Assembly: GCF_000373105.1 (NCBI RefSeq)
Contig: NZ_KB890469.1
Location: forward strand, 47,981 to 111,980
Origin: Neolewinella persica DSM 23188
GTDB taxonomy: Bacteria; Bacteroidota; Bacteroidia; Chitinophagales; Saprospiraceae
Length of the DNA stretch: 64,000 bases
Direction of reading: 5' to 3'
The stretch's first letter is position 1. Every line of letters starts with the position of its first letter. The position numbers and the translations under genes were made by a program. Shown piece after piece: positions 191-63,294 of this stretch. The notes beneath the pieces were generated by a model that saw only the letters and a program-made list of their open reading frames with translations, was not told the origin of the DNA and did no database searches.

Positions 191-997
191 CTCGACCAAT
201 TGCAGCATCTCCTCAACCCTTACCCCAAAATCGGAATTATTTACAGAAATTTTTTCTAACTCGGTTTTGGCCCGGGCATCACCGGCTTTAAAATAAGCCA
301 GGGCGAGGTAAAACTGTCCATCGTCTTTGAAGGCGGTGCTGCCGTTGGCCAGCGCGGTAAAGATGGCCCTGGCCTCGGCATCCCGATCGGTTTCCAGGGC
401 AGCGATGCCGAAGGCCAGTCGTGCTTCATTGTCGTCGGGGTTTTGCTGGAGGTAAAGGATGAGCTGGGTGTGTGCTTCAGCGTAGTCCCCTGCATTGAAG
501 GCCCGCTGGGCGGCGGTAGCGGCCCCGATAGCGACGTCGCTTTTTTCGGTAAGGTTAAGTGGCGCATGCAGCGCAAATTGCCGGTAAGGCTCAGCAGTGG
601 AAAAAGGATTCCAGAGCAGCAAGACGAGCGCAACTGCGGCCGCAATGCCTGCGGCAGGGAGCCATTGTTTCCAACCCAGCGTACGGATTTTGGCTGTTTT
701 AACTTCCTTCTTACTTTGCTCCTCTTTTACTTTTCCTTGCACCGGCGTCCGCGCCTCCTGACCTGTATCCTGTTCCGTGACGGACTGAAAGTGCTGCGAA
801 GCCAGTGCAGCCATTTGTGCTTCCAGATCAGGTAGGGTCGCTTCAGTTCGCAAAAAGGAAAGTTCTTTTTTCCGTTGCTGCAGCTCGGCTGCCAGCTCCG
901 GCTCGGCGGCCAGCCGTGCCTCAAAGGCCACCAACTCCGGCGGCCCAAGATCACCCGCGAGGTAGCGGCTGATCAGAATATCATTTTTTTCATGCAT
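188..997 (-). CDS. Anti-sigma-factor-like membrane protein with TPR-like periplasmic domain
   Basis: The protein has 269 residues from the ATG at 997; a GTG directly before it is possible. The N-terminus (ISRYLAGDLGPPE, then a helical LAAEPELAAEL stretch) resembles the short anti-sigma or zinc-finger-like heads of Bacteroidota. A charged linker follows, then one membrane segment at residues 112-129. The C-terminal half is a TPR-like repeat region (AAQRAFNAGDYAEAHTQL and following). It lies 80 bp downstream of an ECF sigma gene on the same strand, which supports a role as membrane-bound partner of that sigma factor. A copy of the 19-bp GC-rich element falls in the linker, around residues 81-87. 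The family is inferred from layout, not from a diagnostic motif; no ZAS Cys/His motif is visible. Confidence 0.6.
   Translation of the reverse strand: MHEKNDILISRYLAGDLGPPELVAFEARLAAEPELAAELQQRKKELSFLRTEATLPDLEAQMAALASQHFQSVTEQDTGQEARTPVQGKVKEEQSKKEVKTAKIRTLGWKQWLPAAGIAAAVALVLLLWNPFSTAEPYRQFALHAPLNLTEKSDVAIGAATAAQRAFNAGDYAEAHTQLILYLQQNPDDNEARLAFGIAALETDRDAEARAIFTALANGSTAFKDDGQFYLALAYFKAGDARAKTELEKISVNNSDFGVRVEEMLQLVE
737..755 (+). repeat. 19-bp GC-rich element, copy 1 (intragenic)
   Basis: TTGCACCGGCGTCCGCGCC, two differences from the consensus TTGCACCTGCGGCCSCGCC outside the S position. It is antisense within the linker of the anti-sigma-like gene and encodes part of EARTPVQGK. Confidence 0.7.
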
Positions 998-1077
998 CAC
1001 TTATATCACCTTTTAGTTCACAGTCGCCAGTTCAGTGGCCCACAATCGTTTTCAACCAATGGACGCTAACTATTGAA

Positions 1078-1635
1078 CTACAGACCTTCATAAAGCTTCC
1101 GCCAACGGCTCCCGCAGGCATGCCGCCTCCGGTATACCGTGTTGGCCTCGGCCATACCCAATTCGGCAGCAATGGTTGCCGCCGGTAAACCCTTCGCCAG
1201 CAATCGTAACAACCGCTGACATAATTCACTTAACTCTGCAAAGGCAGCTTTCATCTTTCTCTGCCGGATGCCTTCTTCTTCTACGGCTTCCAGCAAATCG
1301 TGTACGTTGCCTTCGCTACTATATGCCGTTGGTAATGCGTCCCTTACCTCCACCGACCGCTTTTTTTTACGCAGTGTGTACAACCACTTGTTCTGGCAGA
1401 TCCGGAAGAGTAGAGCTCCTATCGGACAGGTAAGGACAAAATCCGGGTCATTTGCCTTTTGGTGCAAGGCAATTATTCCCTCCTGAAACACATCCTGTGC
1501 ATCAGCCAGGCTGCCACTATTTTTAGTGATCCAGCTGGTAATGGTCGATGCATTGTCAGCATACACCCCATTGAGTACAGAAAAATCTCCCTCCCGGAGG
1601 GCTAGTATAAGCGTATGATCAGCGTGTGGAGCCAT
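1078..1635 (-). CDS. RNA polymerase ECF-type sigma factor
   Basis: A 185-residue protein with the two-domain plan of ECF sigma factors. Residues about 25-95 carry a sigma-2-like region (SLADAQDVFQEGIIALHQ, then LLFRICQNKWLYTLRKKKRS, the expected -10 binding and DNA-melting helices). Residues about 130-180 carry a sigma-4 helix-turn-helix (LSELCQRLLRLLAKGLPAAT, AAELGMAEANTVYRRRHACG). The downstream gene encodes a membrane anti-sigma-like protein, giving the usual sigma/anti-sigma pair. The target regulon cannot be read from the sequence. The adjacent 1636-1957 gap would hold its promoter. Confidence 0.85.
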   Translation of the reverse strand: MAPHADHTLILALREGDFSVLNGVYADNASTITSWITKNSGSLADAQDVFQEGIIALHQKANDPDFVLTCPIGALLFRICQNKWLYTLRKKKRSVEVRDALPTAYSSEGNVHDLLEAVEEEGIRQRKMKAAFAELSELCQRLLRLLAKGLPAATIAAELGMAEANTVYRRRHACGSRWRKLYEGL

Positions 1636-1957
1636 AGAATGACAATGATACGGATTTGAGAAATAACGACTTGTCTGGAGGCTATTTTAATCGGGAATCT
1701 GAGGAGAGAACCATAATCGGGGGTAAAGTGAATTATTTGTGGGTCAAAATAGGGAATACTTGAGGTTAAATAACCGGATGGACTTGTTCGGGTAACTAAA
1801 ACCGCCAGATTCGGTACGCACGGTCTGGAAAAAATGTAACCAGTACAGGTGTATTTATTCAATAGTGTAATCAAATTGATATAATTTGACTATCTTTACA
1901 TTATATTGGTGACGAATACTAAATCCTTTTAACACACCCACAGATAAATTTCAAACT
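1636..1957. other. Divergent intergenic gap, AT-rich
   Basis: It separates the sigma operon (leftward) from the propeller gene (rightward). It is AT-rich and contains TATCTTTA at 1891-1898, one mismatch from the Bacteroidota TAnnTTTG -7 box, about 60 bp before the ATG at 1958. No convincing -33 TTTG is at the right spacing. No further gene is visible. Confidence 0.35.
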
Positions 1958-3763: not shown

Positions 3764-3788
3764 GATTACCCCCGATAATGACTTTATA

Positions 3789-3817: not shown

Positions 3818-3870
3818 TTCGTTTAGGTGCCTGACTCTAAACCAGGTCTGTGTCGGAAGGGGTATGATCT

Positions 3871-3889
3871 GGCGCGGCCGCAGGTGCAA
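3871..3889 (-). repeat. 19-bp GC-rich element, copy 2 (intergenic)
   Basis: Reads TTGCACCTGCGGCCGCGCC on the minus strand, a perfect consensus. It lies between two plus-strand genes and is antisense to the downstream one (ATG at 3995). Confidence 0.9.
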
Positions 3890-6372: not shown

Positions 6373-9300
6373 ATGAAAACCATCTATAAATTCCTATTCC
6401 TGTTTTGTTTGCTAATGACTGCGCAGCCGGCAGTTGCACAAAATCCTCAGCCGGCGGTTGAGTGGGCCAAGCTCTATGGAGATTCTTTGGATCAACGGCC
6501 ACATAAAATTAAAGCCTTTGGCGATGGTGTTTATGTTGCGGGAGAGACGACGGACATGGGCCAGACGTATGGCACCTTCAGTAAGTTTGACCCTAATACT
6601 GGTAGCCTGATATGGCACTTCCGGCTGGACCGCGCCAGTTCGTTTGCTGATTTCGAGTGGGATCCAATACGGGACCTATTCATTGTGGTGGGCAAAACCT
6701 TGCCCTTTTCCTCCTCATTTGATAACGCTTCTTTGGCGGTTCTGGTGGATGACGCCGGGATCGGACAGCGACTCAGGGAGTTTAATTTCGTTGGGCGTGA
6801 GGAACTCACGACTATTGTCCGCCATCCTTCAGCACCTGACCCATCTTTCCCTTACTATGTTTTGGGCGGTAAGAATCCGGGGACGAATAATCCCTCAAGT
6901 TTTGATGAGCCTATTCTACTTAACCTCAACATCAGCCTTGTTGAAAAATGGGAGCATGAGTTTATGGGGCCCTTTTTGAACGGTTCCGCCATCGAGATTG
7001 AAGGGACACGTGGTTTGGTGCCGCTGAGTTCTGGTGAAATACTGATTCTGGGCAATGGTTCCGTAGCCAATGAAGGAGTTGTCATTGTGGTTGACGGCCT
7101 CACGGGAGTACCTACATTGCCCCTCTATTATCCCGATTTTATTGACTTTTACGATGGGGTAGAGTTGCCCAACGGAGAAATTGCGCTCGTTGGTGAGCGC
7201 TTTCAGTCACACGAGGGCATAGTCTTGATCGTTGAACCTGCTAACTACCAGCCGGTGGCTGGAATGATATTTAGCGACATCCGGCAATTTCGGGAAGTAG
7301 GCCTGGGCAACCCCGGAACCAATGGTGGTGAATACCCGCTCTTTGTGGTGGGCGACCTCAAGAATAACCCACAAAAATTCAACTACTTACATAAAATAGA
7401 TTACGCGCCAGGCCAGGGGATCTCCTTGGAGTACGTCCATCATTTGCCAGCTTCGGCCCAGGATTTTGGCGACCCTCACCTTTCCGTCACCCCGAATCGA
7501 AATCGGATATTTTATGCGGATTCCCGGGTTAATCCAAGCGCTTCTACCCCCAGTCGAGATATGTTTATCGGTAATTTCAGCCTGGATTTTGTTCCCGAGT
7601 GTGTTGAAGATGCCTCTTCTCCCCACTTAGGGTATACCGTAAATCCTATTTCTTTCGGCCTTCGTTTTCGGACTAAAATTAATGGTCCGGATCAATTCTT
7701 AATGCCACTTACCCTGCCTTTGCCTTTTGTTTGCGCTACCCAGTGCGCTGCAATGATACCCTGTACAGCAGATTTTACCTTCGAAACGGAATGCTGCGAA
7801 GGCTTCTTTACCAGCAATGTGACGGGAACGGCCCCATTTACCTACCAATGGGACCTTAACTGTGACGGTATAGCCGATGGCTTTGGGAATGTCCCCAGTA
7901 CCAGTATTTCCTTTCCCGGTTCGGGTACTTATCAGGTTTGCCTCACGGTAACCGACGCTACGGGCTGCACGCAAACCGTACAGAAAGCGGTAACGGTGGT
8001 GGATGACCCGCCGGTGTTCAACTGCACCAACGTAGTAATCCCCACTGACCTTGGCGAATGCTTCGCCACTTATACTCCGGTGATTGACATAACGGACGAT
8101 TGTACGCCCAACATCCGCCCCTTCTGCACCTTTTCTGGCCAGGTTAATGGCACCGGTCCTTTCACGTCTTTTCCCAAAGGAGTTACCACGGTTGATTGCG
8201 TGGCAGAGGACAACAAAGGACAGCTCGTTCGCTGCCAGTTCACCATCACGGTCGAAGACCGGGAGAAGCCAACGGTTAGCTGCCAGGCCCCTCCTGCCGT
8301 TACCGTACCAATCTGCGATGGTGGGGCTAACGTTACCTGGCCCGCTGCTACTTTCAGTGACAACTGCCCGATGGCGCGAATTGATTCGACCCACGTCAGT
8401 GGAGACTTTTTCTCCTGCGGCCGCACCACCGTTACTTACACGGCTACGGACATGGCCGGAAATACAGAAACCTGCTCCTTTCAGGTAGTCGTTAATTGTG
8501 AATGCGGAGAAGCAGGTAACGGTGAAATGACGTGTACTGACGTTGATAACCAATATGCCTTTTCGCTTTCCGTCAACGATCTGGGAGGAGCAGGACCCGG
8601 AAATTGCCAGATTGCGGTAACCAACCCGGTCAACGGCGGAGTAATCTCGAATGTGGTGGTGACCGGCCCCGGACCAAATTACACCGTGACCGGCCTGATT
8701 GACCTTGCCACGGCCCCCATTCCCACTTCCGTTCAACTGCAGGTTAACCTGACTTGTGTCTGTCCTGATGGTACCTCACACCAGTGTGGCCTCCCGGTAA
8801 ATATTACCGTTCCTTGCTGTAAGGAAATATCCATTGACAACCAGGAGCAATGCCGGGAATCGGGCACTGTTTCCATTAACCTGATTGGCTGTAACAACCT
8901 GTTTGACGTTCGGCAGGTCCGCTACTACATCTCAGATGCGCCCTGTGTACCGGGAGCGCCGATGACACTGATTCAGGTCAGCCAAACCTGCCGCCCACTG
9001 GAATTAGCCCCCCAATACCACACTGGCGATGTTTGTGTCTACGCCGAAGTCGATATGGGCCCGGGCGCCGGGCCCTGCCGCCAGCTGAGGACAGATACTG
9101 CCCTGGTTAAGCTTTGCTCCCCGGTAGACGGATCGATCCCGGACCAGCAATTCTGCTATGCTGGTACTCCCATAGTCCCTGCACTACTGAGCTTGAACCT
9201 TGCCAACCCTGACAACTGTGCCTACACCATACAATGGTTCGGTCCCAGAGGACAGGTGAACGGTGCCACCGGACTTACCTATCAACCACCGGCAATTTCA

Positions 9301-10671: not shown

Positions 10672-11196
10672 ATGTTTCCAGCCATGAATCTAAAACTACC
10701 CCAAACAACTAGCGACTTGACTTTTCGCAGGGCAGCCCCTTCCGATCTCCCAGTGCTAGAGCACTGGGATACGCTCCCGCACGTAATCGCCTCCGACCCC
10801 GATGACGATTGGGAATGGGAAATAGAACTGCCCCGCACTGTTTCTTGGCGGGAACAGGTTATGGTTGAATTGTCGGGCACGCCACTGGGCTTTCTACAAA
10901 TCATAGATCCGCTGGAGGAAGAGAGTCATTATTGGGGGGGTGTTGGCCCAAACCAGCGTGCGATTGATGTTTGGATAGGGCCGGAAATTTACCTGGGGAA
11001 AGGCTACGGTACTCAGATGATGCGTTGGGCCATTGACGCCTGTTTTTCGGACGCGGCGGTTGAACAAATTCTAATCGATCCGCTTGCGACGAATACCCGG
11101 GCACATCGCTTCTACGAGCGGTTGGGTTTTATCTTTCTTGAGGAGCGCAAAATGGGCGATTCGGTATGCTTCTTATACATTATGCGGAGATCATAA
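10672..11196 (+). CDS. GNAT-family N-acetyltransferase, AAC(6')-Ib-like
   Basis: A 174-residue GNAT protein; the ATG at 10684 is an equally good start. Acetyl-CoA-binding motif A is visible as YLGKGYGTQMMRWAIDACF, followed by ILIDPLATNTRAHRFYERLG, the beta-6/alpha-4 end of the fold. The order LRRA.PSDLPVLEHWDTLPHV, D-W-I-G-P and IDPxxxNTRAHRFYE resembles aminoglycoside 6'-N-acetyltransferases of the AacA4 type and the related siderophore/amine acetyltransferases. The actual acceptor cannot be told, so calling it a resistance gene would be over-reading. Its stop codon abuts the stop of the convergent fusion gene at 11191, leaving no room for a terminator between them. Confidence 0.75.
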   Translation: MFPAMNLKLPQTTSDLTFRRAAPSDLPVLEHWDTLPHVIASDPDDDWEWEIELPRTVSWREQVMVELSGTPLGFLQIIDPLEEESHYWGGVGPNQRAIDVWIGPEIYLGKGYGTQMMRWAIDACFSDAAVEQILIDPLATNTRAHRFYERLGFIFLEERKMGDSVCFLYIMRRS

Positions 11197-14100
11197 CTGG
11201 CACTGGTCCTCTTCCAACACCTGATCCAGATAATTCACCAGTAGGTCAGCATTTTTCCGATCAAAACACATTGGCGGCTTGATCTTGATGACGTTCTCGT
11301 CGGGCCCGTCGGTGCTCATCAGGAAGCCGAGTTCACGCATCCGGTTTTTGAGGTAGCTGGCTTGTTGAGTTGCAGGCAGCAGGCCATGATCAGGCGCGGC
11401 CGCAGGTGCAGGGGAAGGTTTAACCAGCTCGAAGCCCAGGAACAGCCCTTCTCCCCGGACGTCGCCGATAATGGGATGGTCTGCCTGGAGCTGACGCAGC
11501 AATGTTTTGAGGTAGTTGCCCGTTTCCAGCGCGTGTTGTTGGAGTCCTTCTTCTTTCACGGCGTCGAGTACGGCCATGCCTGCGGCACAGCTGACGGCGT
11601 TGCCGCCAAAGGTGTTGAAGTACTCCATACCGTTGGCAAAGGCCCGGGCTACCTCCGGCGTACAGACCACGGCACCCAGCGGGTGCCCGTTGCCCAGCGG
11701 CTTGCCGATGGTAACGATGTCGGGCACTACGCCCTGGAGTTCAAACCCCCAGAAATGACTACCCACCCGGCCAACGCCGACCTGCACCTCGTCGGCAATG
11801 CAAAGTCCGCCAGCCGCCCGGACGTGGCGATAAACTTCCTCCAGGTAACCTTCCGGCAAAACGATCTGCCCGCCGCAACTGAGGATGCTCTCCCCAATGA
11901 AACCACCGATCTTATCTCCGGCGGCTTCCCACTTCCGGATGACCTTCCCGGCGTAGGCACTATAGGTTTTACCCGCCGTAGCGGGGTCCCGGTGGATGCC
12001 CCGGAAGACGTCTGGCAAGGGTAGCAGCCGGGTGCGGGGTGGCGCACCTTTTCCACCTTTACCGTCAAATTTGTAGCTACTCACGTCAATCGTCCGACTG
12101 GTATTACCGTGGTAGCCGACCTCTACGGCCAGCATGTTTTGGGTGCCCGACCAGGCTTCGCACATCCGCATGGCCAACTCGTTCGCTTCGCTACCGGAGT
12201 TGACGAAGTGGACGACGGAGAGCTCCGGCGGCATCGTTGCCGTCAATTTTTCGGCGAAGCGGACCAGGTTCTCGTGCAGGTACCGCGCATTGGTGTTCAG
12301 TACCGCCGCCTGCCGCTGAATGGCCTCGACTACTTTCGGGTGCTCGTGGCCTACATGAGCGACGTTGTTGACCGTGTCGAGGTACCGCCGACCAGTCGTA
12401 TCCAGCAAATATTGCCGGACACCGCGTACGATGTGGAGGGGCTGCTTGTAGGACACGGAGAGGGAGTAGCCGAGGGATTTTTTGCGGGCTTGGAGAACCT
12501 CCTCTCCAAAATCTCCCCACGGGGGAGAGGCTTTTTCAGATAGCTTTCCGTTTTGCTGGTCGGAATAATCTGAAATAGCGGATGTTGACCCTGCTGACTT
12601 ATACTGCCCGAGGAACGGCTGGGGATCGGGGCATAGCCTGAGCCAGACTTTCGCCTCTCCCGGATAAGCGACTCCGGGGAAGTCTCCGACGTAATCCAGC
12701 ATATCCATCATTACCTGGAAGTGGAGGTGTGGCGGCCAGCCACCGTTATCGGCCGGCACGCCGAACCTGGCTATTTCGTCTCCTTTTTGCACCTGCGTCC
12801 CCGCCTGAAAATGCAGTAATGAATCCGCCGATAAATGGCCGTAGAGCGTGAAGAAAGTTTGCTCGTTTTCCCGGTGCTCCAGGATGATCACATTACCGTA
12901 GCCATGCTTTGTTGGGTCGATGCCAAGGCTATGAATGGTTGCATCGAAAGGCGCATAAATGGGCGTGCCTGCGGCTCCCCAAACGTCGAGCCCCAGGTGG
13001 ACCGTCCGCCAACGTGGCCCCGAATTCCCTTCTTCTGCAAAGTCGTCGGTCGTGTATACCGGCCGGGTTTCGCCGTAGCCGCCAATACCAAAGTCCGCTT
13101 TATGATCCTCCAGATGACGGGCAACATGACGGCTGAAACGGCCGGGGCTTTCATAGTTTAGGTAATGCCCGAGGTCAAGGCTGCCTACCGAGAAATCCAT
13201 GGGGATAACGGAGCGCCCCGTCAGTTGAACGACCGGAAAAGGAGACGCCTGGTCCAACCAGGTTTTGAATGCCTGGTGTGGATCATCGTCTTCTGGTTGC
13301 CGCATCGCCTCCCTTAGCACCAGGTTGATCAGGTGTGGCGGAATGACCCGGAGCCTTTCCAGTACCTCCCAGGCAGGTGCCGCACTTACTTGCAGGTAAG
13401 CATTTTCGGGTTCCAGACGGGCGTTGTCCGCAGCAGTGGCTACCGTGATGAGCAGGCGGCCCGCGATGAGGTTGAACAGGTGGTCCGCAGAGACTTTCGG
13501 TTGTTTCGAGTGGTAACCTTTTGCGACTTCGCTCATGGCCTGCAGCGGATCCGCGACGCCCATTCCGGCATAGGCACAGGCAATGGCCAATTCGTTGATG
13601 GTTTGCGTCCGCATGGCGTCTCCAAAATCGATGATGCCACAAAAATGCCCCTGGTCGTTCACCAACAGGTTCTGTTCGTGGGCGTCGTTAAAGTTGATGC
13701 TGGTGGGAAGAGTAGATAAATGGGGGAGGGTTTTACGTTCAAAAAGGTCCCAGAAGTAATTGGCGATCTCCCCTTGTTCGGGGGTGAAATACCGGGCCAG
13801 CGGCCTGGATTCCAGGGTCTGGCTTGGGTTCCATTTGTAGTTGTCGGGGGCATCGGGATGATCGAAGTCAGCCAGGGCTTCGGTTAACGTGCCAGCAACC
13901 ATTCCCCAATCATGGCGTAGCTGAACGGAGATCGGGTTGATCTCTCCGAGGGGCTTCCCTTCTACCCAGGTTTGTAACCTGACCAATCGGCCATCCTCCA
14001 GTTTTTTGATGTCTCCGACGGGCATGGGGACTTTGAGGAGAAAACGGGGATGGGCGTAACCATCCGTTTCTGGTTCGCCATCCTCGGCGGCTTCCCAGGC

Positions 14101-14331
14101 GCAGGAAAGCACTTTGCTCCCCAGGTGCATCATCATGGCCCGTTCAAAATCTACTGCCTTCTGGTCTTTTCCTGGCCGACTAATCTTCAAAGTGTACTGT
14201 TCCCCATCTTCCGCCGTGAGGCGGAAGTTGAGGTCCACCTCACCAGCCAGCGGTTTAACCTCGGTAATCGTAAGCAGGAAGTGCTCGGCTGTCAGCTGAC
14301 GAATGATTACATCGGTAAAAGAATGACTCAT
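11191..14331 (-). CDS. Three-domain fusion: APH-like kinase, M23 peptidase-like domain, class-III aminotransferase/phospho-lyase
   Basis: A 1046-residue protein. Residues about 20-330 form an aminoglycoside/choline-kinase-type domain with the catalytic loop [11 protein letters not shown] (about 217) and the metal-binding IDFGD (about 233). Residues about 380-580 form an M23/LytM-like domain with HLGLD, YGHLS and HLHF, so all zinc ligands look intact. Residues about 600-1046 form a class-III PLP aminotransferase with [16 protein letters not shown] and the PLP lysine in [10 protein letters not shown]. In animals the separate kinase and lyase, HYKK and PHYKPL/ETNPPL, act in sequence on hydroxylysine or phosphoethanolamine, so a kinase-then-phospho-lyase role is a reasonable inference. 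The role of the M23 domain is unclear. Copies of the 19-bp element occur near residue 977 and, perhaps by chance, in the M23 domain. Start overlaps the cupin gene stop (ATGA). Confidence 0.85.
11393..11411 (-). repeat. 19-bp GC-rich element, copy 3 (intragenic)
   Basis: CTGCACCTGCGGCCGCGCC, sense with the fusion gene, read as PAPAAAP in a short loop between ELVK and the PATQQAS helix of the aminotransferase domain. Confidence 0.9.
12787..12805 (+). repeat. 19-bp GC-rich element, copy 4 (intragenic, possible coincidence)
   Basis: TTGCACCTGCGTCCCCGCC, antisense in the M23 domain, where it encodes AGTQVQK. This matches the usual G-x-x-V-x-K-G-D turn of M23 domains, so part of the similarity may be protein-driven. 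Confidence 0.6.
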
Positions 14332-17890: not shown

Positions 17891-17891
17891 C

Positions 17892-21985: not shown

Positions 21986-22374
21986 AACAATAAGGACAAT
22001 GAAAAAAAAATTATGGAAAAAGCGAATCGATGACTAAGGCAATGCCGGGTGAAAGGGAAACAGAAAAAATGCTATTCAGATCTCATCTATACAATTAGCC
22101 TACTCAAAATCCGCCTGTTAAAGCTACTCTATGTAACAAAAAAATACTTAGAAGTTTCCGATACACGACAAAAATAAGCCGAATCAGGCAAAACGACGTT
22201 TTTTTCTTGCGTTTATACCCAAAAAAGCGACTAAATGTGGTAAAAAAGCTAAAACAGGAGGTTTGTTTACCTTGCTAATAGTGTCTTTTCTTTGCACCTG
22301 CGGCCCCGCCCCCTTATCATTGTGGGTAAAATACCTATCATCAGGTCCTACTCAATGCTGTAAAATCCACAATT
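21986..22374. other. Divergent intergenic gap
   Basis: AT-rich spacer between the leftward RRM gene and the rightward NlpC/P60 gene. It contains a 19-bp GC-rich element (22292-22310) but no gene. The half next to the RRM gene is long enough for an mRNA leader, but I see no defined structure. Confidence 0.5.
22292..22310 (+). repeat. 19-bp GC-rich element, copy 5 (intergenic, sense)
   Basis: TTGCACCTGCGGCCCCGCC, perfect consensus, 64 bp before the GTG at 22375. TTTCTTTG ending at 22294 resembles a -7 box, with TTTG at 22262-22265 some 21 bp upstream. Confidence 0.9.
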
Positions 22375-26566: not shown

Positions 26567-26585
26567 GGCGCGGCCGCAGGTGCAA
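26567..26585 (-). repeat. 19-bp GC-rich element, copy 6 (leader, sense)
   Basis: TTGCACCTGCGGCCGCGCC, perfect consensus, only 14 bp before the decarboxylase ATG and on the same strand. Confidence 0.9.
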
Positions 26586-28946: not shown

Positions 28947-30041
28947 TTAAGAATTACCGATCAACTGAACTTCCCGCTCCAGTTCCACCCCAAATTTAGC
29001 CTGCACTTCGTCCTGAATAAACTTGCTAAAGGCGATAATGTCTTGTCCCGAAGCGGCGCCATGGTTAACGAGGACCAGCGCTTGTTTGGCGTACGTCCCA
29101 ACATCACCGTGGCGAGCCCCTTTGAGGCCGGCGCGGTCGATCAGCCAGCCAGCGGGGAGTTTTACGTGGCCCTCGTCGATGGGGTAGGAGGGGATATCCT
29201 CGAAAGCTGCGAGAAGGCGATGATGGGTTGCGATGGAAACCACTGGATTTTTAAAGAAACTACCGCTGTTGCCCAGGAAAAACCAATCGGGAAGTTTAGA
29301 CCGGCGGATGTTGGTGACGGCCAGCGCTACGTCGGCCGGGCTGGGAGCGTCGATGGACAGGTGGGCCAGTTCGGCCTGGATCGCACCGTAGCCGGTCTTT
29401 AATTCTTGTTGGTCGTTGAGGCGAAAATCGACAGCAGTAATCAAAAAACGGCCAGGTTCCCGTTTGAAGCGACTGTCCCGATAGCCGAAGGCACAATCCT
29501 CCGGCAATAATGTGCGCGCACCGACGCCGTATTCCCAAACGTGAACGGCGGTGATGCACTCGGCGACCTCGGCACCGTAAGCACCGATGTTCTGAACCGG
29601 CGCGGCACCTACGGTGCCTGGAATAAGGATGAGGTTCTCAAGTCCGCACCAACCCCGGTCGAGGGTGTAACGGACAAATTGATTCCAGTCAACACCCGCA
29701 CCAACCCGTAGGAATACCGCCTCTCCGTCGGACGAATACTCGCGTCCGACGGCAGCCTGACTATTGGCCTTTGAGAGGGAAATCAGCCTGCTCTTCGAAC
29801 CTTTTGCTGCACCTGCGGCCCCGCCCAAAATTTCCACACCACCCAGCTGTACGTGGACCGTCAGACCGGGAACCTGCTCCAAAAGTACCATATTGCTGCC
29901 CCCGCCAAGTACCAGTTGCGGAGCTTGCCTGAACTCAGGACCGTCCAACTGACTGAGGTCCGTAAGGGCAAGGTACCGCTCCGCTACGGAGGGCAAATGG
30001 AACGTGTTGAGACGCGAAAGGGAAATATTATGCTGGATCAT
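28947..30041 (-). CDS. murB: UDP-N-acetylenolpyruvoylglucosamine reductase
   Basis: 364 residues. It reduces UDP-GlcNAc-enolpyruvate to UDP-MurNAc in peptidoglycan synthesis, using FAD and NADPH. Visible: NTFHLPSVAERYLAL at the N-terminus, FAD-binding VLGGGSNMVLLE, GLENLILIPGTVGAAPVQNIG, FGYRDSRFKR, and the catalytic Ser in GNSGSFFKNPVVS, with AGWLIDRAGLKG near the end. This is a type I MurB. It carries an extra stretch of about 30 residues (about 70-105, starting GGAAGAAKGSKS) between two N-terminal strands, and a 19-bp repeat element encodes the start of that insert. It begins 5 bp after the ABC exporter stop, so the two are one operon. Confidence 0.93.
   Translation of the reverse strand: MIQHNISLSRLNTFHLPSVAERYLALTDLSQLDGPEFRQAPQLVLGGGSNMVLLEQVPGLTVHVQLGGVEILGGAAGAAKGSKSRLISLSKANSQAAVGREYSSDGEAVFLRVGAGVDWNQFVRYTLDRGWCGLENLILIPGTVGAAPVQNIGAYGAEVAECITAVHVWEYGVGARTLLPEDCAFGYRDSRFKREPGRFLITAVDFRLNDQQELKTGYGAIQAELAHLSIDAPSPADVALAVTNIRRSKLPDWFFLGNSGSFFKNPVVSIATHHRLLAAFEDIPSYPIDEGHVKLPAGWLIDRAGLKGARHGDVGTYAKQALVLVNHGAASGQDIIAFSKFIQDEVQAKFGVELEREVQLIGNS
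29807..29825 (+). repeat. 19-bp GC-rich element, copy 7 (inside murB)
   Basis: CTGCACCTGCGGCCCCGCC, antisense, encoding GGAAGA at the front of an extra loop in MurB. Confidence 0.9.
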
Positions 30042-30046: not shown

Positions 30047-31879
30047 TTAGTCGAGGCGCTGAAATTGTAGTCGGGCCAGGGCAGAATAAGCACCTCCCGG
30101 ACGGTCACTCAGCTCCTCGTGAGTACCGGTTTCTACGATGGTACCATTTTCGATAACGTATATCTGATCCACTTCGCGGATGGTGGCTAATCGGTGGGCA
30201 ATGATGATGCTGGTCCGGCCTTCCATCAGGCGATTCAACGCTTCCTGTACGACGCGTTCACTTTCGGCGTCCAGGCTACTGGTGGCTTCGTCGAGGAGTA
30301 ATATGGCCGGGTTTTTGAGGATGGCCCGGGCAATAGCTACACGTTGCCGTTGGCCACCGCTGAGCTGGATGCCCCGATCACCGACCAGGGTGTCGAAGCC
30401 TTCCGGGAAGTTTTCGATAAAGTCCAGCGCATTGGCTTTTTCGGCAGCATTCCGAATTGCTTCCTCACTGGCGTTCAGGGCGCCGTAGGCAATGTTTTCG
30501 CGAATCGTACCACCGAAAAGCAGCACTTCCTGGGGCACAAGTGCCAGGTCTTCACGGAATTGGTGCAGGTCGTAGTCTTCAATATTGCGGCCATCCACCG
30601 TGATACGGCCGTCGTTGAGCGGATAGAAGCGCAGGAGCAGCTTCATGATGGTTGACTTTCCGCTACCGCTGGCGCCAACGAGGGCAATCTTCTGCCCCGG
30701 CTCGATCTTGAGGTTGATTCCCTTCAGCACATTCACGTCGGGTCGGGTCGGGTAGTTAAAGCGGACGTTTTCGTAACGGATATTGCCTTGCAACTGTGGA
30801 ACGTTATGTGGCGCGGTCGCAGGTGCAGGGGAGGTGGAAGGAGCAGGGGAGGGAGTACCCTCAACCTCTTCGCTGTCGAGAATATCGACTACGCGGTCGG
30901 ATGCTCCAAGTGCGGAGACAATCTCGGTGTAAAAATTACCAAGGCTGGCAATGGACCCACCAATAAGGGCGGTAAATATGACAAAGCTGAACAGGTCGCC
31001 CACCGGAAGCGCATCCGCCTGCACCAGTAATACGGCGCGGTAAATGATGTAGAACAAGGCGCCGAACATTATGGTAACGATGAAGGCCGAAAACAGGCCC
31101 CGCGCACTGGCCGTCTTCAGTGAAATACGAATGGTCTCATCGATACTTCGGCTGTAACGCGCGAGTTCGAATTCTTCATTGGTATAAGCTTTTACGGTGT
31201 TTATGCTTTGGAGACTTTCCTCGACGATGATGTTGGACTGGGCCAACTGCTCTTGGCGGGCCTTGGTCATTTTGCGTACGTAACGACCGAAAAACATGGC
31301 AGCAATGACCACCACCGGAAAGATAGCCAGGCTAACCAGAGCGAGTTTCATCATTGTCGCCAAAATATAAACTATGGCTCCCGTCAGGATAATGAGCTGC
31401 CGCAGGAATTCCGCCAGGGTCAGGGAGAAGACACCCTGGATCTGGGTGATGTCGTTCGTAATCCGGCTGGTCAGTTCACCTACCCGGGTACGTTCGAAGA
31501 AGGGGATTTCAAGTCGTAGAATTTTCGCGTAGAGATCCTTCCGTAATGACCCCATAGCCTTTTCGCTTACTTCGGCCTGCAGACGAACCCGCAGGAAGCT
31601 AAGTGGTGCCTGAATGACCAGTAATATGGCAAGCAATGAGAAGATTTCCTTGATGGAAAGTTCATACTTTCCTTCTCCCCGGATCACATTAAGGGCTTCG
31701 CCCGGCAGTTGCATGATCACAAGGAAGACCAGGCTGCTCACCACAAGGATCACAAAGCTGAAGAGGAACTTCCACCGGTAGAGCCACACGTAATCAAAGA
31801 TTCGAAGAGAGCGATTGAATTTCTCTTTCTGTGATCGGTCGGAAACCGGACGTTCCGTTTTATCGTAAGTTTTAGCCAT
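30047..31879 (-). CDS. ABC exporter, fused permease and ATPase
   Basis: 610 residues: a six-helix transmembrane domain (residues about 25-320; the loop TRVGELTSRITNDITQIQGV is typical of MsbA/BmrA-type exporters) and a nucleotide-binding domain. Motifs: Walker A GASGSGKST (about 405), Q-loop VPQEVLLF, signature LSGGQRQRVAIARA, Walker B ILLLDEATSSLD and switch His IIIAHRLAT. It works as a dimer and exports lipids, drugs or peptides; the MsbA/LmrA type is most likely, substrate unknown. The linker between the domains is extended by a Pro/Ala/Ser-rich stretch (PSPAPSTSPAPATAP, about 343-357) that includes a 19-bp repeat element. First gene of an operon with murB. Confidence 0.92.
   Translation of the reverse strand: MAKTYDKTERPVSDRSQKEKFNRSLRIFDYVWLYRWKFLFSFVILVVSSLVFLVIMQLPGEALNVIRGEGKYELSIKEIFSLLAILLVIQAPLSFLRVRLQAEVSEKAMGSLRKDLYAKILRLEIPFFERTRVGELTSRITNDITQIQGVFSLTLAEFLRQLIILTGAIVYILATMMKLALVSLAIFPVVVIAAMFFGRYVRKMTKARQEQLAQSNIIVEESLQSINTVKAYTNEEFELARYSRSIDETIRISLKTASARGLFSAFIVTIMFGALFYIIYRAVLLVQADALPVGDLFSFVIFTALIGGSIASLGNFYTEIVSALGASDRVVDILDSEEVEGTPSPAPSTSPAPATAPHNVPQLQGNIRYENVRFNYPTRPDVNVLKGINLKIEPGQKIALVGASGSGKSTIMKLLLRFYPLNDGRITVDGRNIEDYDLHQFREDLALVPQEVLLFGGTIRENIAYGALNASEEAIRNAAEKANALDFIENFPEGFDTLVGDRGIQLSGGQRQRVAIARAILKNPAILLLDEATSSLDAESERVVQEALNRLMEGRTSIIIAHRLATIREVDQIYVIENGTIVETGTHEELSDRPGGAYSALARLQFQRLD
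30810..30828 (-). repeat. 19-bp GC-rich element, copy 8 (inside ABC exporter)
   Basis: CTGCACCTGCGACCGCGCC, sense, read as PAPATAP in the linker between membrane and ATPase domains, the same frame as copy 3. Confidence 0.9.
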
Positions 31880-40636: not shown

Positions 40637-40947
40637 GAGACGAATTGGTTACGTTTTAGGTGGCAAATTTTCCTTCGATAATCAAATTTACCAAATCATC
40701 TTCACTAACTCACATTAGGTGGAGCGGTAGGTCTGGCTGGTGAATAGAAGAACTTCAGCATACTTCTTTGTTAGGCGGGTTAAAGCTTTTCGGAAAAAAG
40801 GTAATTTGATCGGAATAGAGGGAGTTCAAAAATGTGTGTCTGTCAACGGCATTTTTACCACCATCCAGGGAACAACAATTCCTCAGTTCATCTTACCCAA
40901 CTTTGCACCTGCGGCCGCCCCCCTTTACTCCTTCCCCCTGTTCTACA
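40637..40947. other. Gap upstream of the EAD/caspase operon
   Basis: Contains the operon promoter region (no clear TAnnTTTG on the minus strand that I can support) and one 19-bp GC-rich element near the symporter stop. No gene. Confidence 0.4.
40903..40921 (+). repeat. 19-bp GC-rich element, copy 9 (intergenic)
   Basis: TTGCACCTGCGGCCGCCCC, one change in the last block. It lies between two minus-strand genes, antisense to both. Confidence 0.85.
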
Positions 40948-42934: not shown

Positions 42935-42953
42935 GGCGCGGTCGCAGGTGCAA
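42935..42953 (-). repeat. 19-bp GC-rich element, copy 10 (intergenic, sense)
   Basis: TTGCACCTGCGACCGCGCC, one change, 122 bp upstream of the small-protein/symporter operon and on its strand. Confidence 0.85.
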
Positions 42954-48331: not shown

Positions 48332-49798
48332 TTACTCAGCATTACGCCAGTCCGCATAATTCCACGAACGCCAATCGGTAATGGCTTGCTGGTTACTTAG
48401 CCTTTTGTGTTCCATCAGGTCCTTTCCACCGGGGTAATCATGCAGCAAAAAAGCATTGTCTGGAGGCAGTTCATAAACCAAGTAATTCCAGTCAACTTCA
48501 TCGGCGGTCTGCGCCGAGAGATTGTAGCGGGTAACCACACAGGACCAGTTGATAGCAGCAAAAAGGAGCAGGCAGAGCCAGGCGGCCATCCCGTTGGTTT
48601 GCAGGAGGTAGGTGAGGGTGAGCCGGTCACGGATTTTGCGGAAGAGGGTAAACAATCCGAAAAGAATGAGGAGGAGGACGAAAGCGATCTGGACCCGGCC
48701 GAGGGCCAGTCCGTAGGCATCGATGTAGTGCCAGTTACGGATCCCGACGGAAAGGGCGAGAATACCGTTTTGGATCATCCAAAGCTTGGCTAAGGGAGCC
48801 AGGTAAGGACTGTCTTGCAGGAAATTCAGGTTGCCACGGAAATAGTAGAGTACGACCAGCATAGCTAGGCCAATGGACAGCATGAGGTTCCACGTGCCTT
48901 GATGAACATATTGGCTAAGGGTGGCGGCAGAAAGCTTCCCGGGGTTTAGCCAGACGTAGTGTAGGTCGGTGGCATTGACGGCAGCCAGCAATAAATTGAG
49001 CAAACCGAAGGTGAGGACGGCCTGTCGGTACTCGGTTTTCAGGGCGAGCGTTTTTTGGCGCGGCCGCGGGTGCAGGGAAAGTTGCGTGGCAGGGCGGGGG
49101 AGCTGCGTCCGTTCAGGCCTTTGGCGAACGAGCTTGTCCTGAAAGCCAAGTTGTTGCTTCACCAGCCGCGAAACATCAATACGGGGATAGAAAAAACCAA
49201 GCGCCAGCACCCCCCCGAATAGGATTAGTAGCAAGGACCACCAGACATTCGTATTGATGGAGAAATTGCTGAGGTAAGACAGGAAAACGTTCAGGCCATA
49301 GGCAAACTGATCGTTGGCAGCTACGTACAGTAGTACAAATGGAACCAGGACCAGGGAGGGAATGACCGCCTGTTTCAGCCAGGGCAAGGCTACCGGGCTG
49401 CTGTGTATGTCTTGCTGTCGTCGGATGGTCTTCCACCTGCGCCACTGGCGCAGGGGAGCTTCGAACAGCGAACCCACGCCCAACAATAAGGCAAACCAAA
49501 CAAAGCGCAGCTCGCGGGACTGGGCGAAACCCAACACCAAAAAGTACGTCAGGTGATGCGCCCAAATGCTCACCTGCCCGTGGACGATGACGACGCTGCC
49601 CGCCGAAAACAGTAAGCCGCCCACCGCCCAGATGAAGGAAGGGTGTTTACCCAGTTCCGGACGAACCCGTAGGGCCAGCCCGATCAAAAGTGCGTCGAAG
49701 AGTAATACGTTTAAGCCGATCTCGCCGTGGTAAAAAAGGAAGGCGTAGGTCAAACCCAGGACCAGGGCGGCGAGGGTGGATTTTTGGGAGGTATTCAT
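48332..49798 (-). CDS. DUF4173-like polytopic membrane protein
   Basis: 488 residues from the ATG at 49798; an upstream ATG at 49936 would add 46 residues of intergenic-looking composition, but it overlaps the stop of a small peptide gene (TGATG), so the longer form is possible. About ten membrane segments, beginning LAALVLGLTYAFLFYHGEIG. The second half carries words usual for DUF4173/DUF4153 proteins (VRQRPE linker, YHYVDAYGLALGRVQI-like helix written here as NWHYIDAYGLALGRVQIAFV, CVVTRYNL and a final cytoplasmic or periplasmic tail). Function unknown. A 19-bp repeat element lies in the linker around residues 241-247. Last gene of the 51110-48332 operon. Confidence 0.7.
   Translation of the reverse strand: MNTSQKSTLAALVLGLTYAFLFYHGEIGLNVLLFDALLIGLALRVRPELGKHPSFIWAVGGLLFSAGSVVIVHGQVSIWAHHLTYFLVLGFAQSRELRFVWFALLLGVGSLFEAPLRQWRRWKTIRRQQDIHSSPVALPWLKQAVIPSLVLVPFVLLYVAANDQFAYGLNVFLSYLSNFSINTNVWWSLLLILFGGVLALGFFYPRIDVSRLVKQQLGFQDKLVRQRPERTQLPRPATQLSLHPRPRQKTLALKTEYRQAVLTFGLLNLLLAAVNATDLHYVWLNPGKLSAATLSQYVHQGTWNLMLSIGLAMLVVLYYFRGNLNFLQDSPYLAPLAKLWMIQNGILALSVGIRNWHYIDAYGLALGRVQIAFVLLLILFGLFTLFRKIRDRLTLTYLLQTNGMAAWLCLLLFAAINWSCVVTRYNLSAQTADEVDWNYLVYELPPDNAFLLHDYPGGKDLMEHKRLSNQQAITDWRSWNYADWRNAE
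49057..49075 (-). repeat. 19-bp GC-rich element, copy 11 (inside the DUF4173 gene)
   Basis: CTGCACCCGCGGCCGCGCC, sense, read as LHPRPR, a frame different from copies 3 and 8. Confidence 0.85.
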
Positions 49799-51313: not shown

Positions 51314-51332
51314 ATGCACCTGCGGCCCCGCC
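51314..51332 (+). repeat. 19-bp GC-rich element, copy 12 (intergenic, sense)
   Basis: ATGCACCTGCGGCCCCGCC, 134 bp before the protease start. Confidence 0.9.
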
Positions 51333-55349: not shown

Positions 55350-55369
55350 TTGCATCCTGCGTCCCCGCC
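55350..55369 (+). repeat. 19-bp GC-rich element, copy 13 (leader, sense)
   Basis: TTGCATCCTGCGTCCCCGCC, with one inserted base and one change, 11 bp before the ATG at 55381. TTATCTTG just upstream resembles a -7 box. Confidence 0.75.
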
Positions 55370-57004: not shown

Positions 57005-57025
57005 TCGCACCTGCGTCCGCGCGCC
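57005..57025 (+). repeat. 19-bp GC-rich element, copy 14 (intergenic, sense)
   Basis: TCGCACCTGCGTCCGCGCGCC, with changes and a 2-base extension, 114 bp before the ATG at 57140. Confidence 0.65.
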
Positions 57026-57751: not shown

Positions 57752-57763
57752 TCAGCACTCAGT

Positions 57764-60681: not shown

Positions 60682-60809
60682 GCTTGTTTAGTCCTTTGAT
60701 CTGTTATTGTCTTGTTGGCCTTGTCCTGCACTTCAACGTTATGAGGGACGGGGTAGTTCTAGCTGTGCTGTGGCCTTCAGCGTGAGGCGCGGACCCGCCG
60801 AGATGCTAA

Positions 60810-60828
60810 GGCGGGGTCGCAGGTGCAA
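60810..60828 (-). repeat. 19-bp GC-rich element, copy 15 (intergenic, sense)
   Basis: TTGCACCTGCGACCCCGCC, one change, in the engB upstream region and on its strand; CACCTTTG overlaps it and resembles a -7 box. Confidence 0.85.
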
Positions 60829-60948
60829 AGGTGCTGCTAAATGCGCAAGGGAAGAGGGCAAGGACTTATCTTATGCGCTGAAGGCACCGAACAACTACCG
60901 TTTCGACTACGCTTTCATGATATATTTTTTCACTAAAAACCACTACAC

Positions 60949-61194: not shown

Positions 61195-61272
61195 CGATAT
61201 TTTTACGGCGTTCATCGAAAAAGCTGGCCACCAATCAAAGAAGGTCCTCACCTTTAGGAAAAATATCTCCTC

Positions 61273-61524
61273 ATGGGTTTGTTCTCCTGGATTCTTCTCG
61301 GCCTGGTGGCCGGCTTTTTTGCCAAACAATTACATAAAGGCCCCGATCCCGGTGGTTGGTTCGTCACCATGCTGGTCGGCATTGCCGGCGCGTGCGTCGG
61401 CGGCTGGCTGGGTGATTTCACCGGCATCGGTGAGGTAACCGGCTTCAACCTACGCTCCATCGCGATTGCTACGATGGGAGCGATTCTTTGTTTGTGGGCT
61501 TATGGGAAGTTGGAGCGGAAGTAA
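61273..61524 (+). CDS. GlsB/YeaQ/YmgE-family membrane protein, copy 2
   Basis: 83 residues, same three-segment plan and signature: WILLGLVAGFFAKQLHKGPD, GGWFVTMLVGIAGACVGGWL, GFNLRSIAIATMGAILCLWA. It aligns with its neighbour along its full length (about half identical by eye), a clear tandem duplication. No terminator visible between them, so probably one transcript. Confidence 0.9.
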   Translation: MGLFSWILLGLVAGFFAKQLHKGPDPGGWFVTMLVGIAGACVGGWLGDFTGIGEVTGFNLRSIAIATMGAILCLWAYGKLERK

Positions 61525-61663
61525 TGGGTTAGTCGAAACACTCATGACACAGGCGTCACCCCGAACGCTCGAAGCAAAAATTCGGGATAACGCCTGGTTT
61601 AAATTTGGCCGCAGCCGTTGGGAAATGCGCTGCCATTTCCACCATAGGCTCAGTAGCCAGCGC

Positions 61664-62794
61664 CTACTCTGGTTTTATCTGCAAAGTCACTTCCAGTGCT
61701 TTCTCTGGTTCAACCATTGCATTGAGTACCCGGAACTTCAGCGAGAGATCTCCCAACTGTTTCAGGGTCATTACGTTGACGGAGGTGCTACCGTTGGGAG
61801 ACAGGGTGATTGGCCCCAGGTCGCTTTGCAGGGAATAGCCACTAAGGTTTTCCAATAAGTAGGCCGCATCTGAATCGTTGTGGATGGTCACTTCCACGAC
61901 GGAGGAAGCTCCGAAATAAGCAGCGGAGGTTACCCTCAGAGAAGCCTCCACTACGGCCCGGACATTTTCTTCCCGGCCCACTAACGTATTTTCGAACCAG
62001 GCTACGGTCCGTCCGGCTATCAACGCAGCTTTCATTGCCTCGGGTGTACGTTCTGTTGCCAGCACGAGGGTAACGGGGCGATGGCCTCCTTTATGGAGGT
62101 CGTACTGCCAGTCGACGAGGCCGTGAATATCAGAAGTACCCATCACCGTCAGGTTATTGTCCAAGGCGATTCGAAAGGCTTCCTTACTGATGGTAAGATC
62201 GTTAACTACTTCAATACCATGTAATAGTTTTCTCCGGATCAGGTCCCGGTGCATATCCGTAAGGGTGGCTACGCCGTCTTCCCGTTGGGCGATCCAGTTG
62301 GGGTGGTTCCAGAAGGTAAAGGCGCCCTGGCGGTTCGCTTCTTCGAAAGCGGCCACGGGGTCGTCGATCAGGAGCTTATTGGCATCCTGTATGAAAATAG
62401 CATTGCTGTGCCCCGGGGGCATGGAGCGGGTGACCTCTGCTCCTCGAAGGACCATCAGGTCGTGGGGAAGGGCCAGTTCGGCGGCAATGTCGTGAGCCCG
62501 GTTCCGGTCGGGATGAGGGAGGTCTTCAGCGTGGGGCTGGTACTCAAGATGCTCCGTAAGGGAGATCGCATCGAGGCTGTCGCGAACTGCTTCCTCGACC
62601 CGAATATCCGGCCAGACACTGCCGTCGGAGAAGACAGTATGCATGTGCAGATCGGCCACCAATGTCAGATATTGATCCGTATCGGGAAAATGAATGGCCC
62701 GCTCGTTGTGGTGATCATGACCGTGCCCGTGGGGTTGGGCAGATGAAGGGAGAAAGGGGTAGAGTAGAAGAAGGAGGAAGCAGTATTGTTTCAT
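61664..62794 (-). CDS. Secreted PHP-domain metallophosphoesterase-like protein
   Basis: 376 residues from the ATG at 62794, where a signal peptide begins (MKQYCFLLLLLYPFLPSSAQ); longer readings pass through a 19-bp repeat element. A His-rich spacer (HGHGHDHHNE) precedes the PHP domain: ADLHMHTVFSDGS (metal His pair), SLTEHLEY, LRGAEVT, FWNHPNW and GTSDIHG, which supplies the other metal ligands in order. The C-terminal 110 residues form a beta-rich tail (VVEVTIHNDSDAAYLLENLS). Likely a periplasmic, metal-dependent phosphoesterase with unknown substrate. The His-rich stretch may bind metal. Confidence 0.85.
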   Translation of the reverse strand: MKQYCFLLLLLYPFLPSSAQPHGHGHDHHNERAIHFPDTDQYLTLVADLHMHTVFSDGSVWPDIRVEEAVRDSLDAISLTEHLEYQPHAEDLPHPDRNRAHDIAAELALPHDLMVLRGAEVTRSMPPGHSNAIFIQDANKLLIDDPVAAFEEANRQGAFTFWNHPNWIAQREDGVATLTDMHRDLIRRKLLHGIEVVNDLTISKEAFRIALDNNLTVMGTSDIHGLVDWQYDLHKGGHRPVTLVLATERTPEAMKAALIAGRTVAWFENTLVGREENVRAVVEASLRVTSAAYFGASSVVEVTIHNDSDAAYLLENLSGYSLQSDLGPITLSPNGSTSVNVMTLKQLGDLSLKFRVLNAMVEPEKALEVTLQIKPE

Positions 62795-62824
62795 GAAGGG
62801 GAATATACGATGGCTTCCAATTTG

Positions 62825-62843
62825 GGCGCGGACGCGGGTGCAG
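62825..62843 (-). repeat. 19-bp GC-rich element, copy 16 (leader, sense)
   Basis: CTGCACCCGCGTCCGCGCC, 30 bp before the PHP gene ATG. Confidence 0.75.
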
Positions 62844-63275
62844 AAAAATGGTTGAAAGCAAAGTATGCTCAGCAGGCAAGTACCTTTTGACCGGCCAAAA
62901 GCCGGGGACCTGGACACCGTTGTACTCCCTGTTTTCTACGAAAAAGGAAGGCTTTATTGAAGGAATTGTGTCCAGGTAGCAAATAGCAAATGTTAAAGTT
63001 TTGGTTATTTTCAAAAAAGGCCTCCAGCGGTGATCATCCGGGCCATTCCGCCAAAGCCTTTGCGGGTAGAAGTTTAAGTGTTGGAGTATGCAATTGCCCA
63101 ACAAAGATTTCCTTTTTTAGGCACTAATAGGGGAATATTTGGCAGCCTTCTACAGTGCTAATGTAAAACCAATATTAATTCCGTCAGTGGTCGGAACCAT
63201 TTTTCATTTCCGGGTATTAATAACCAGAGAAAGGACGGAACTTTGCCTTTCCAAACACAGCTTTTAAACCTCTTT

Positions 63276-63294
63276 TTGTACCTGCGGCCCCGCC
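63276..63294 (+). repeat. 19-bp GC-rich element, copy 17 (leader, sense)
   Basis: TTGTACCTGCGGCCCCGCC, one change, 67 bp before the ATG at 63362. Confidence 0.85.

Follow-up and report, generated by a model that had tools for sequence, protein, structure and literature searches.

Why does a GC-rich element of 19 bp recur on both strands of a 64,000-nucleotide stretch of the Neolewinella persica genome (the window), and what has put it there? The initial annotation counted 17 copies, nine on the forward and eight on the reverse strand, and judged this density to be beyond chance; the count, the strand split, and the judgement all stand. Searching with the core word at up to three mismatches gives 17 matches in the window against 0.03 expected (100 dinucleotide shuffles, maximum 1). 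These matches include position 8409, which has three mismatches and no pyrimidine lead, and miss the copy at 55350, which carries a 1-nt insertion. When a profile was built from 270 sites in 1.34 Mb of the same genome, it dropped position 8409 and returned exactly the 17 sites of the initial annotation and none extra, with 55350 shifted to 55351.

Every copy extends beyond the core coordinates given here, with a same-strand lead of ~24 nt upstream and a tail of ~6 nt downstream. Exact copies lie in intergenic DNA at 3871..3889 (− strand, profile score 51.2) and 22292..22310 (+, 39.9), and either on or immediately 5' of the start of a PLP-decarboxylase gene at 26567..26585 (−, 44.8). Further intergenic copies occupy 40903..40921 (+, 35.8), 42935..42953 (−, 45.3), 51314..51332 (+, 47.1), 55351..55369 (+, 22.7, the copy with the insertion), and 60810..60828 (−, 33.7), and a copy with three mismatches at 57005..57023 (+, 26.5) is outside the called genes and overlapped by a listed open reading frame. 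Within genes, sense copies are found at 11393..11411 (−, 41.3) in gene 11191-14331 (−), which also holds an antisense copy at 12787..12805 (+, 37.7), at 30810..30828 (−, 45.6) in the linker that joins the membrane domain of an ABC transporter (30047-31879, −) to its ATPase domain, and at 49057..49075 (−, 42.8) in a DUF4153 gene. Other antisense copies sit at 737..755 (+, 40.7) in predicted gene 188-1000 (−) and at 29807..29825 (+, 46.5) in an enlarged loop of murB (28947-30041, −). The last two copies, 62825..62843 (−, 40.7) and 63276..63294 (+, 40.9), form an outward-facing pair 451 bp apart.

The excess extends to the whole genome, as the scan proposed in the initial annotation shows: the 7.08 Mb of this marine member of the Bacteroidota contain 1,394 sites at up to two mismatches (700 forward, 694 reverse), and the reversed-pattern control gives 0 matches. 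The word is longer than 19 bp. Its core, TTGCACCTGCGGCCSCGCC, has an information content of ~30 bits and is preceded by a TGCT box near −19 and then a pyrimidine-rich lead, and followed by CnAAAA. TGCT falls between −22 and −16 in 221 of 388 genomic sites, with a peak at −19. The pyrimidine tract noted before the element is real and is not uniform: across 134 sites, C and T together make up more than 50% at almost every position between −22 and −1, the exceptions being −9 and −8, where A is common.

At up to two mismatches, the window word has at least 37 copies in 19 of the 21 Neolewinella genomes (4 and 2 in the remaining two) and is confined to the genus, with 0-2 copies in the non-genus genomes of a 150-genome family sample. 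Four relatives carry altered species-wide words, or dialects. The word CCTGCGCTCCGSCGC at up to one mismatch has 702 copies in sp. IMCC34191 and 531 in N. xylanilytica, which hold 2 and 37 copies of the window word, respectively, and 1-133 in the other 19 genomes; GCACCYGCGGCAGCGCC has 1,021 copies in genome G156, the only one in which it was counted; and TTGCTACTTTGNNAGYCAAA has 425 in genome G157 and none in the remaining 20. Outside the genus, in a 199-genome sample, the G157 word has 0-11 copies, and a reversed control up to 5. The count of 11, in genome G076, includes one repeated sequence. No comparable word was seen in 31-80 kb from each of five other genera, except hairpin-like words of the GGCTTTCGCC type in one of them (G037). 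In viral_contigs, 81 stretches contain an exact 17-base match, and among the 80 loci listed, 75 have a single match and five have two copies; a phage origin was set aside on this scatter. An ABC-transporter query against viral_contigs gave no match.

Several explanations other than uptake have to be weighed against these observations. Chance, or an assembly or adaptor artefact, which the initial annotation had named as a ground for dismissing the element, is negligible: nothing was found in its favour, the shuffle and reversed controls are at or near 0, and an artefact is unlikely to recur across 19 of the 21 genomes. A role in transcription (as a terminator, a promoter element, or an element of the 5' UTR) might be suspected because placement is biased to non-coding DNA, which holds 237 of 388 sites and makes up 19% of the DNA by our own crude gene caller, and because gaps between divergent genes hold 93 of 235 classified intergenic sites and ~29% of classified intergenic bases. 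Such a role is nevertheless very improbable given that the same caller places 92 sites in sense and 59 in antisense orientation inside genes, that 52 sites in tandem gaps point along the flanking genes and 66 against them, and that 51 close outward pairs are spread over divergent, tandem, and convergent gaps and gene interiors. The tiny insertable repeat suggested in the initial annotation, a mobile element (MITE-like or SDR-like) copied into the genome, would fit the high copy number and the position of several genic copies in longer loops, for example in MurB, where the loop with the copy is ~96-100 nt longer than in seven short-loop species. It would not fit one coding place in an NlpC/P60 gene, compared over 10 species rows of which nine are equal in length, where a weak window word occurs in JB7, N. 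aquimaris, and N. marina (three, four, and four mismatches), exact dialect words occur in IMCC34191 and N. xylanilytica, and no word occurs in N. persica, N. aurantiaca, L2Bin, and W8; since presence and absence differ here by substitutions at constant length, insertion is not needed. At the ABC-transporter linker, the word (up to four mismatches) or the local dialect is present in 13 of 15 species, N. persica included, in either orientation (4 sense, 9 antisense). Gap comparisons (24 pairs) revealed no clean insertion of constant size. The C/T preference is graded and sharp boundaries are lacking, a dialect change affects the whole set of sites, and the viral matches are mostly single. Long-range linkage between positions is also slight, and linked variants of a master element are not borne out: 9 of 1,128 position pairs at least four apart exceed the shuffled maximum in mutual information, every one of them in the jittering lead, and among tolerant core positions five of six pairs are at the shuffled level, with the pair 7 and 11 slightly above. 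Because these core positions vary nearly independently, the sites look unlike copies of one parent, and this, with the constant-length substitution and the either-way linker, leaves a mobile repeat with only a slim chance of being correct.

The arrangement of sites along the genome bears on a rival of a different kind. Site spacing has a CV of 0.80 versus 0.995 +/- 0.049 for uniform placement, falling to 0.56-0.59 per strand. Pairs in the same orientation within 3 kb are scarce (38 of 216 versus a mean of 107 and a minimum of 85 in 1000 shuffles), and 51 of 63 pairs within 600 bp face outward (shuffle mean 15.8, maximum 28). By pair correlation, outward pairs are enriched 11.5-fold at 60-120 bp, same-orientation pairs are depleted to 3 kb, and inward pairs are mostly depleted to 1.6 kb; an outward preference was looked for in G157 and not seen. 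Simple one-sided coverage models were rejected, as none accounts for the inward exclusion to 1.6 kb together with the same-strand exclusion to 3 kb. Such a strand-aware pattern resembles what a polar reader inside the cell would need, and the protein-binding site proposed in the initial annotation survives in this form, as a site, read in one direction by a chromosome-organising or repair protein, that would serve as a loop anchor, an insulator, or a polar recombination signal like Chi. We regard this as unlikely, and as the main rival to uptake. The word changes between sister species, which an essential protein co-evolving with its sites could hardly follow unless a drive were at work, and strand polarity is lacking in N. 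antarctica contig C1, the only long contig examined, where 11 forward and 10 reverse one-mismatch sites are interspersed over 1.33 Mb. Polar signals known to act in this way also measure 5-8 bp. HIP1 of cyanobacteria, Chi, and KOPS are genome-wide overrepresented words, all short (5-8 bp), HIP1 being palindromic and Chi and KOPS replichore-skewed in known cases. The Neolewinella word is likewise genome-wide and overrepresented, and to that extent the HIP1-like word of the initial annotation was apt, but it is long and directional with a bipartite lead rather than a short palindrome.

Judged from sequence, the word is probably a DNA-uptake (self-recognition) sequence working like the DUS of Neisseria and the USS of Haemophilus. 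Uptake, one half of the "uptake or packaging signal" originally suggested, is the best supported of the earlier options because the word has dialects, lies on both strands, occupies coding and non-coding sites, and is spaced more evenly than random. The competence machinery would include a surface receptor that favours word-bearing DNA, and fragments with the word would enter the cell and recombine more often than wordless ones, so that the word would build up wherever point mutation makes it and proteins tolerate it. As the preference of the receptor drifts, the set of sites would follow, giving rise to species dialects. We infer an uptake receptor as the recognising protein, uptake bias as the drive behind the word, and directional reading of DNA from the word as the source of the strand-aware spacing.

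ComEC (PF03772) is present in all 21 genomes of the genus and in 10 of 14 control genomes, and is therefore not diagnostic. PF00437, the family of type IV pilus and type II secretion (T4P/T2SS) ATPases, has matches in 20 of 21 genus genomes and reaches the cut-off in 11, with scores of 19-25.5 bits over at most ~85 of 370 positions; because these matches are partial and low-scoring, a T4P/T2SS ATPase is taken to be absent from the genus, a reading that covers the ATPase family PF00437. A type IV pilus receptor, which would be a minor pilin as ComP is, was rejected on the same partial matches and within the same scope. With no convincing T4P/T2SS ATPase found, the outer-membrane step would need another machine, Riemerella-like or otherwise. 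The Riemerella-type pair, a DUF5689 surface protein encoded beside a CarboxypepD_reg outer-membrane protein, was found in G157 alone among the 21 genomes and was rejected as a receptor for the whole genus. Nine proteins scanned in ComEC neighbourhoods (six in N. persica, two in N. agarilytica, one in IMCC34191) showed nothing suggestive of uptake, and transformation of Neolewinella did not turn up in a literature search.

Comparison with known systems places the word near, and apart from, each of them. The flanks of USS are AT-rich, unlike the pyrimidine lead and A tail of the Neolewinella word, which resembles USS in being tolerated in coding DNA and in orientation-dependent genic placement. 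In the sections consulted of one source, the Pasteurellaceae USS is a 10-bp word, AAAGTGCGGT, its placement inside genes is orientation-dependent, and known uptake sequences measure 10-12 bp (PMC2346458); another, as far as consulted, finds orientation without effect on USS uptake (PMC1939737). Significantly even spacing, a further likeness, was claimed for USS by Karlin et al., as cited in the latter, whose author judges it too uneven for a compaction signal (PMC1939737, in part). Like the DUS of Neisseriaceae, described in the parts consulted as read by ComP (PMC3868556) and as having dialects (PMC3630211), the word has more than 1,000 copies, genic and intergenic sites, and dialects among related species (PMC3630211; PMC2346458). 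Unlike the 10-12 bp DUS, it exceeds 24 bp, has a TGCT box whose distance varies, belongs to a genus without a convincing T4P/T2SS ATPase, and shows strand-aware exclusion and outward pairing, of which we found no description for DUS or USS in the portions of the literature consulted. Its length, this pair pattern, and the missing outward preference in G157 weigh against the uptake reading. Riemerella transformation shares with Neolewinella the phylum and ComEC, and differs in the outer-membrane pair, seen here in G157 only. According to the sections consulted, Bacteroidota can be transformed without pili, Riemerella requiring ComEC and having no pilus homologues (PMC8459023), and R. columbina favours its own DNA, with k-mers of up to 10 giving AT-rich words and no long word reported there (PMC7965970).

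These features might together describe a pilus-independent, direction-reading uptake system in Bacteroidota, a picture that we offer tentatively: a bipartite word of more than 24 bp about every 7 kb per strand, same-strand exclusion over 3 kb, back-to-back opposite pairs, a surface protein whose preference changes between species, and a hard mating barrier. If the word instead served a chromosome-organising protein, it would amount to a chromosome-wide directional organising code in bacteria, which would be equally unexpected. Uptake words specific to a cell's own kind of DNA have been described in Pasteurellaceae and Neisseriaceae (PMC1939737, in the part consulted), and an independent case in Bacteroidota, if uptake is the correct reading, would mean that genome tagging evolved again with other machinery, with dialects within one genus and no convincing T4P/T2SS ATPase. 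Uptake would also turn the search for the protein that recognises the word into a concrete task and provide a further system for testing how such words spread. Any model of that spread has to reproduce the strand-aware exclusion, which is a quantitative pattern.

All 17 copies of the GC-rich word that the initial annotation had counted in the window are real: there are 17 matches at three or fewer mismatches versus 0.03 expected, and a profile built from 270 sites (at most two mismatches) in 1.34 Mb of the N. persica genome recovers exactly these 17, including the site at 55351 and leaving out one at 8409 from the mismatch search. A whole-genome mismatch scan shows the excess to be genome-wide: the 7,080,844 bases have 1,394 sites at two or fewer mismatches (700 on the plus strand and 694 on the minus), and the reversed pattern has 0. 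A profile score of at least 14 is reached by 388 sites (0.289 per kb; 199 plus, 189 minus), versus 2 in reversed sequence. Across 134 sites with at most three mismatches, many core positions are nearly invariant and a few are tolerant, namely 0 (T/C), 7 (T), 11 (G/T/A), and 14 (G/C). The pyrimidine-rich tract described before many copies holds up as a preference for C or T in the lead, the sequence upstream of the core, but this preference is graded and interrupted by A at -9 and -8; the tail is a C followed by A-rich positions 21–24. Of the 388 sites, 221 have a TGCT between -22 and -16, most often at -19, and exact TGCTC occurs in 138 of the 388 leads (-40 to -5) versus 23 downstream 40-nt stretches. 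The core carries about 30 bits of information, the lead 7, and the tail 2.

By its MurB relatives the window's genome falls in the genus Neolewinella. Within the family genomes sampled the word is confined to this genus, and some species have their own dialect of it. Genomes outside the genus have 0–2 matches each (family sample of 150), and all 21 genus genomes, one 55% and another 88% complete, have at least two (reversed control 0–3); G157, a further genus genome, with four and sp. IMCC34191 with two are at background level, and the remaining 19 have 37 to 1,394. Dialect words were found through k-mer counts in species with few copies of the window word. CCTGCGCTCCGSCGC is the word of sp. 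IMCC34191 (702 copies) and N. xylanilytica (531) at one mismatch or fewer, with 1–133 in the other 19 genus genomes (reversed control 0–4). GCACCYGCGGCAGCGCC is the word of G156 (1,021 copies, control 2, counted in that genome alone), which additionally has 332 window-word sites at two or fewer mismatches. TTGCTACTTTGNNAGYCAAA is the word of G157, the most divergent genus member by MurB (57%): 425 copies, 0 in the other 20 genus genomes and in controls, and 0–11 at two or fewer mismatches in 199 family genomes excluding G157. Profile density is 0.25–0.35 per kb in N. persica, N. agarilytica, N. aurantiaca, N. lacunae, G156, and G157, and 0.14–0.16 per kb in sp. IMCC34191 and N. xylanilytica, and the consensus of every species profiled for density has A downstream of the word. 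Other words also recur: GGCTTTCGCC and GCCTTTCGGC at scattered places in G037, of another genus (loci L144–L147), perhaps terminator hairpins or another genome-wide word like this one, and 12-mers of the GACAACCCGACA type on N. persica contig C1 (L009–L021; 10 in 140 kb) and, much alike, CTACCGACTACC in N. agarilytica, perhaps both local tandem repeats.

With genes from a simple dicodon caller (80.6% coding), 237 of the 388 sites are intergenic, 92 are sense within genes, and 59 antisense; antisense copies take codon phase 1 once and sense copies phase 0 sixteen times. The first fifth of genes holds more than its share of sense copies (39 of 92), which may partly reflect mis-called gene starts. 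One window gene, at 11191–14331 on the minus strand, carries one sense and one antisense copy; its 1046-aa product joins an APH kinase domain and an M23 peptidase domain to a class III aminotransferase in one fusion protein.

Gaps between neighboring sites have a coefficient of variation of 0.80 versus 0.995 ± 0.049 under uniform placement, and per-strand gaps 0.59 and 0.56 (means 6.7 and 7.1 kb). Outward pairs, opposite words back to back, are enriched 11.5-fold at 60–120 bp, and this ratio declines to about 1 past 450 bp. Pairs in the same orientation stand at 0–0.37 times expectation up to 3 kb and then about 1; inward pairs are depleted up to 1.6 kb, except for three under 60 bp and roughly the expected number at 300–450 bp. 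When orientations were shuffled 1000 times over fixed positions, two counts fell outside the shuffled range: 38 of 216 pairs within 3 kb share an orientation (shuffle mean 107.1, minimum 85), and 51 of 63 pairs within 600 bp face outward (mean 15.8, maximum 28). The inward deficit, with 17 of 117 pairs within 1.6 kb (mean 29.6, minimum 15), fell inside the range. Of the 51 close outward pairs, 18 touch genes; the others are in gaps between divergent (16), tandem (14), or convergent (3) genes. Pairs closer than 1.2 kb are outward 19, inward 6, and same 2 in N. agarilytica, N. aurantiaca, N. lacunae, sp. IMCC34191, N. xylanilytica, and G156 pooled, and 4, 6, and 0 in G157.

The sites are not obviously copies: the 388 hold 184 distinct cores, and the 12 top mutual-information pairs (up to 0.48 bits) are all at most two positions apart. 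Among 1,128 pairs four or more positions apart, only 9 rise above the largest shuffled value, 0.070, and every one of these is inside the lead, where the TGCT box jitters in position. Of the six pairs that core positions 0, 7, 11, and 14 can form, 7–11 is slightly above the shuffled level (0.053 versus 0.046) and the other five are at it.

Orthologous places show how sites differ between species. In an NlpC/P60 gene (10 species rows; the N. persica relative is in the window), exact dialect words stand in sp. IMCC34191 and N. xylanilytica, the window word has three mismatches in sp. JB7 and N. maritima and four in N. aquimaris and N. marina, and N. persica, N. aurantiaca, L2Bin, and sp. W8 have no word there. 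Nine of the ten rows are of equal length, N. maritima being one codon short just upstream, and the comparison shows a word changed by substitution, whether as gain or as loss. At an ABC-transporter linker (15 species, with no row obtained from two G157 pieces), the word, at four or fewer mismatches or as dialect, is sense in N. persica, Co246, N. agarilytica, and sp. W8 and antisense in ANT68, L2Bin, N. aurantiaca, N. marina, N. maritima, N. aquimaris, N. xylanilytica, sp. IMCC34191, and sp. JB7; N. antarctica has a weaker form and N. lacunae none. Because orientations are opposite between species, this suggests independent gains. In MurB (window 28947–30041, minus strand), N. persica, N. antarctica, and N. 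lacunae have an antisense copy in a longer loop, and therefore small insertions may help the word arise at some places; the expanded loop (about columns 73–112 of the MurB alignment) is of varied sequence and confined to part of the genus, with the word in three of the expanded loops.

As for candidate machinery, ComEC is found in all 21 genus genomes, and in G157 a copy of TTGCTACTTTGNNAGYCAAA lies at about 10070–10089 of contig C59 (L190), about 55 bp from a ComEC domain match. The T4P/T2SS ATPase family gives partial matches alone (at most 25.5 bits), which we infer to be other P-loop proteins. Bacteroidota can be transformable without pili: in Riemerella, transformation requires both a DUF5689 surface protein and a CarboxypepD_reg protein of the outer membrane (PMC8459023). 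A pair in G157 (contig C115, L099, 5673–10601) resembles this essential pair, a 933-aa outer-membrane protein (CarboxypepD_reg and plug matches under Pfam cut-offs) adjoining a 695-aa protein with three DUF5689 stretches. DUF5689 has no match in the remaining 20 genus genomes, where the 933-aa protein has just short or partial matches. The word of G157 is also the most divergent one. R. columbina favors its own DNA without a convincing word (PMC7965970). The open-access literature yielded no paper on a Lewinella uptake sequence, Neolewinella natural competence, overrepresented uptake sequences in Bacteroidetes, or Spirosoma dispersed repeats, an absence that is not proof; among the matches listed, wider uptake-sequence work concerns mainly Pasteurellaceae, Neisseriaceae, and Riemerella, plus various other competent bacteria.

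A recognizer and a drive rewarding the word in place would be needed, because words switch genome-wide between sister species, change by substitution where traceable, occupy protein-tolerated places, and show little copy lineage. Uptake bias followed by homologous recombination is the known means of rewarding a word in place, and we consider it moderately probable that the word is a DNA-uptake self-recognition sequence like the known DUS and USS.
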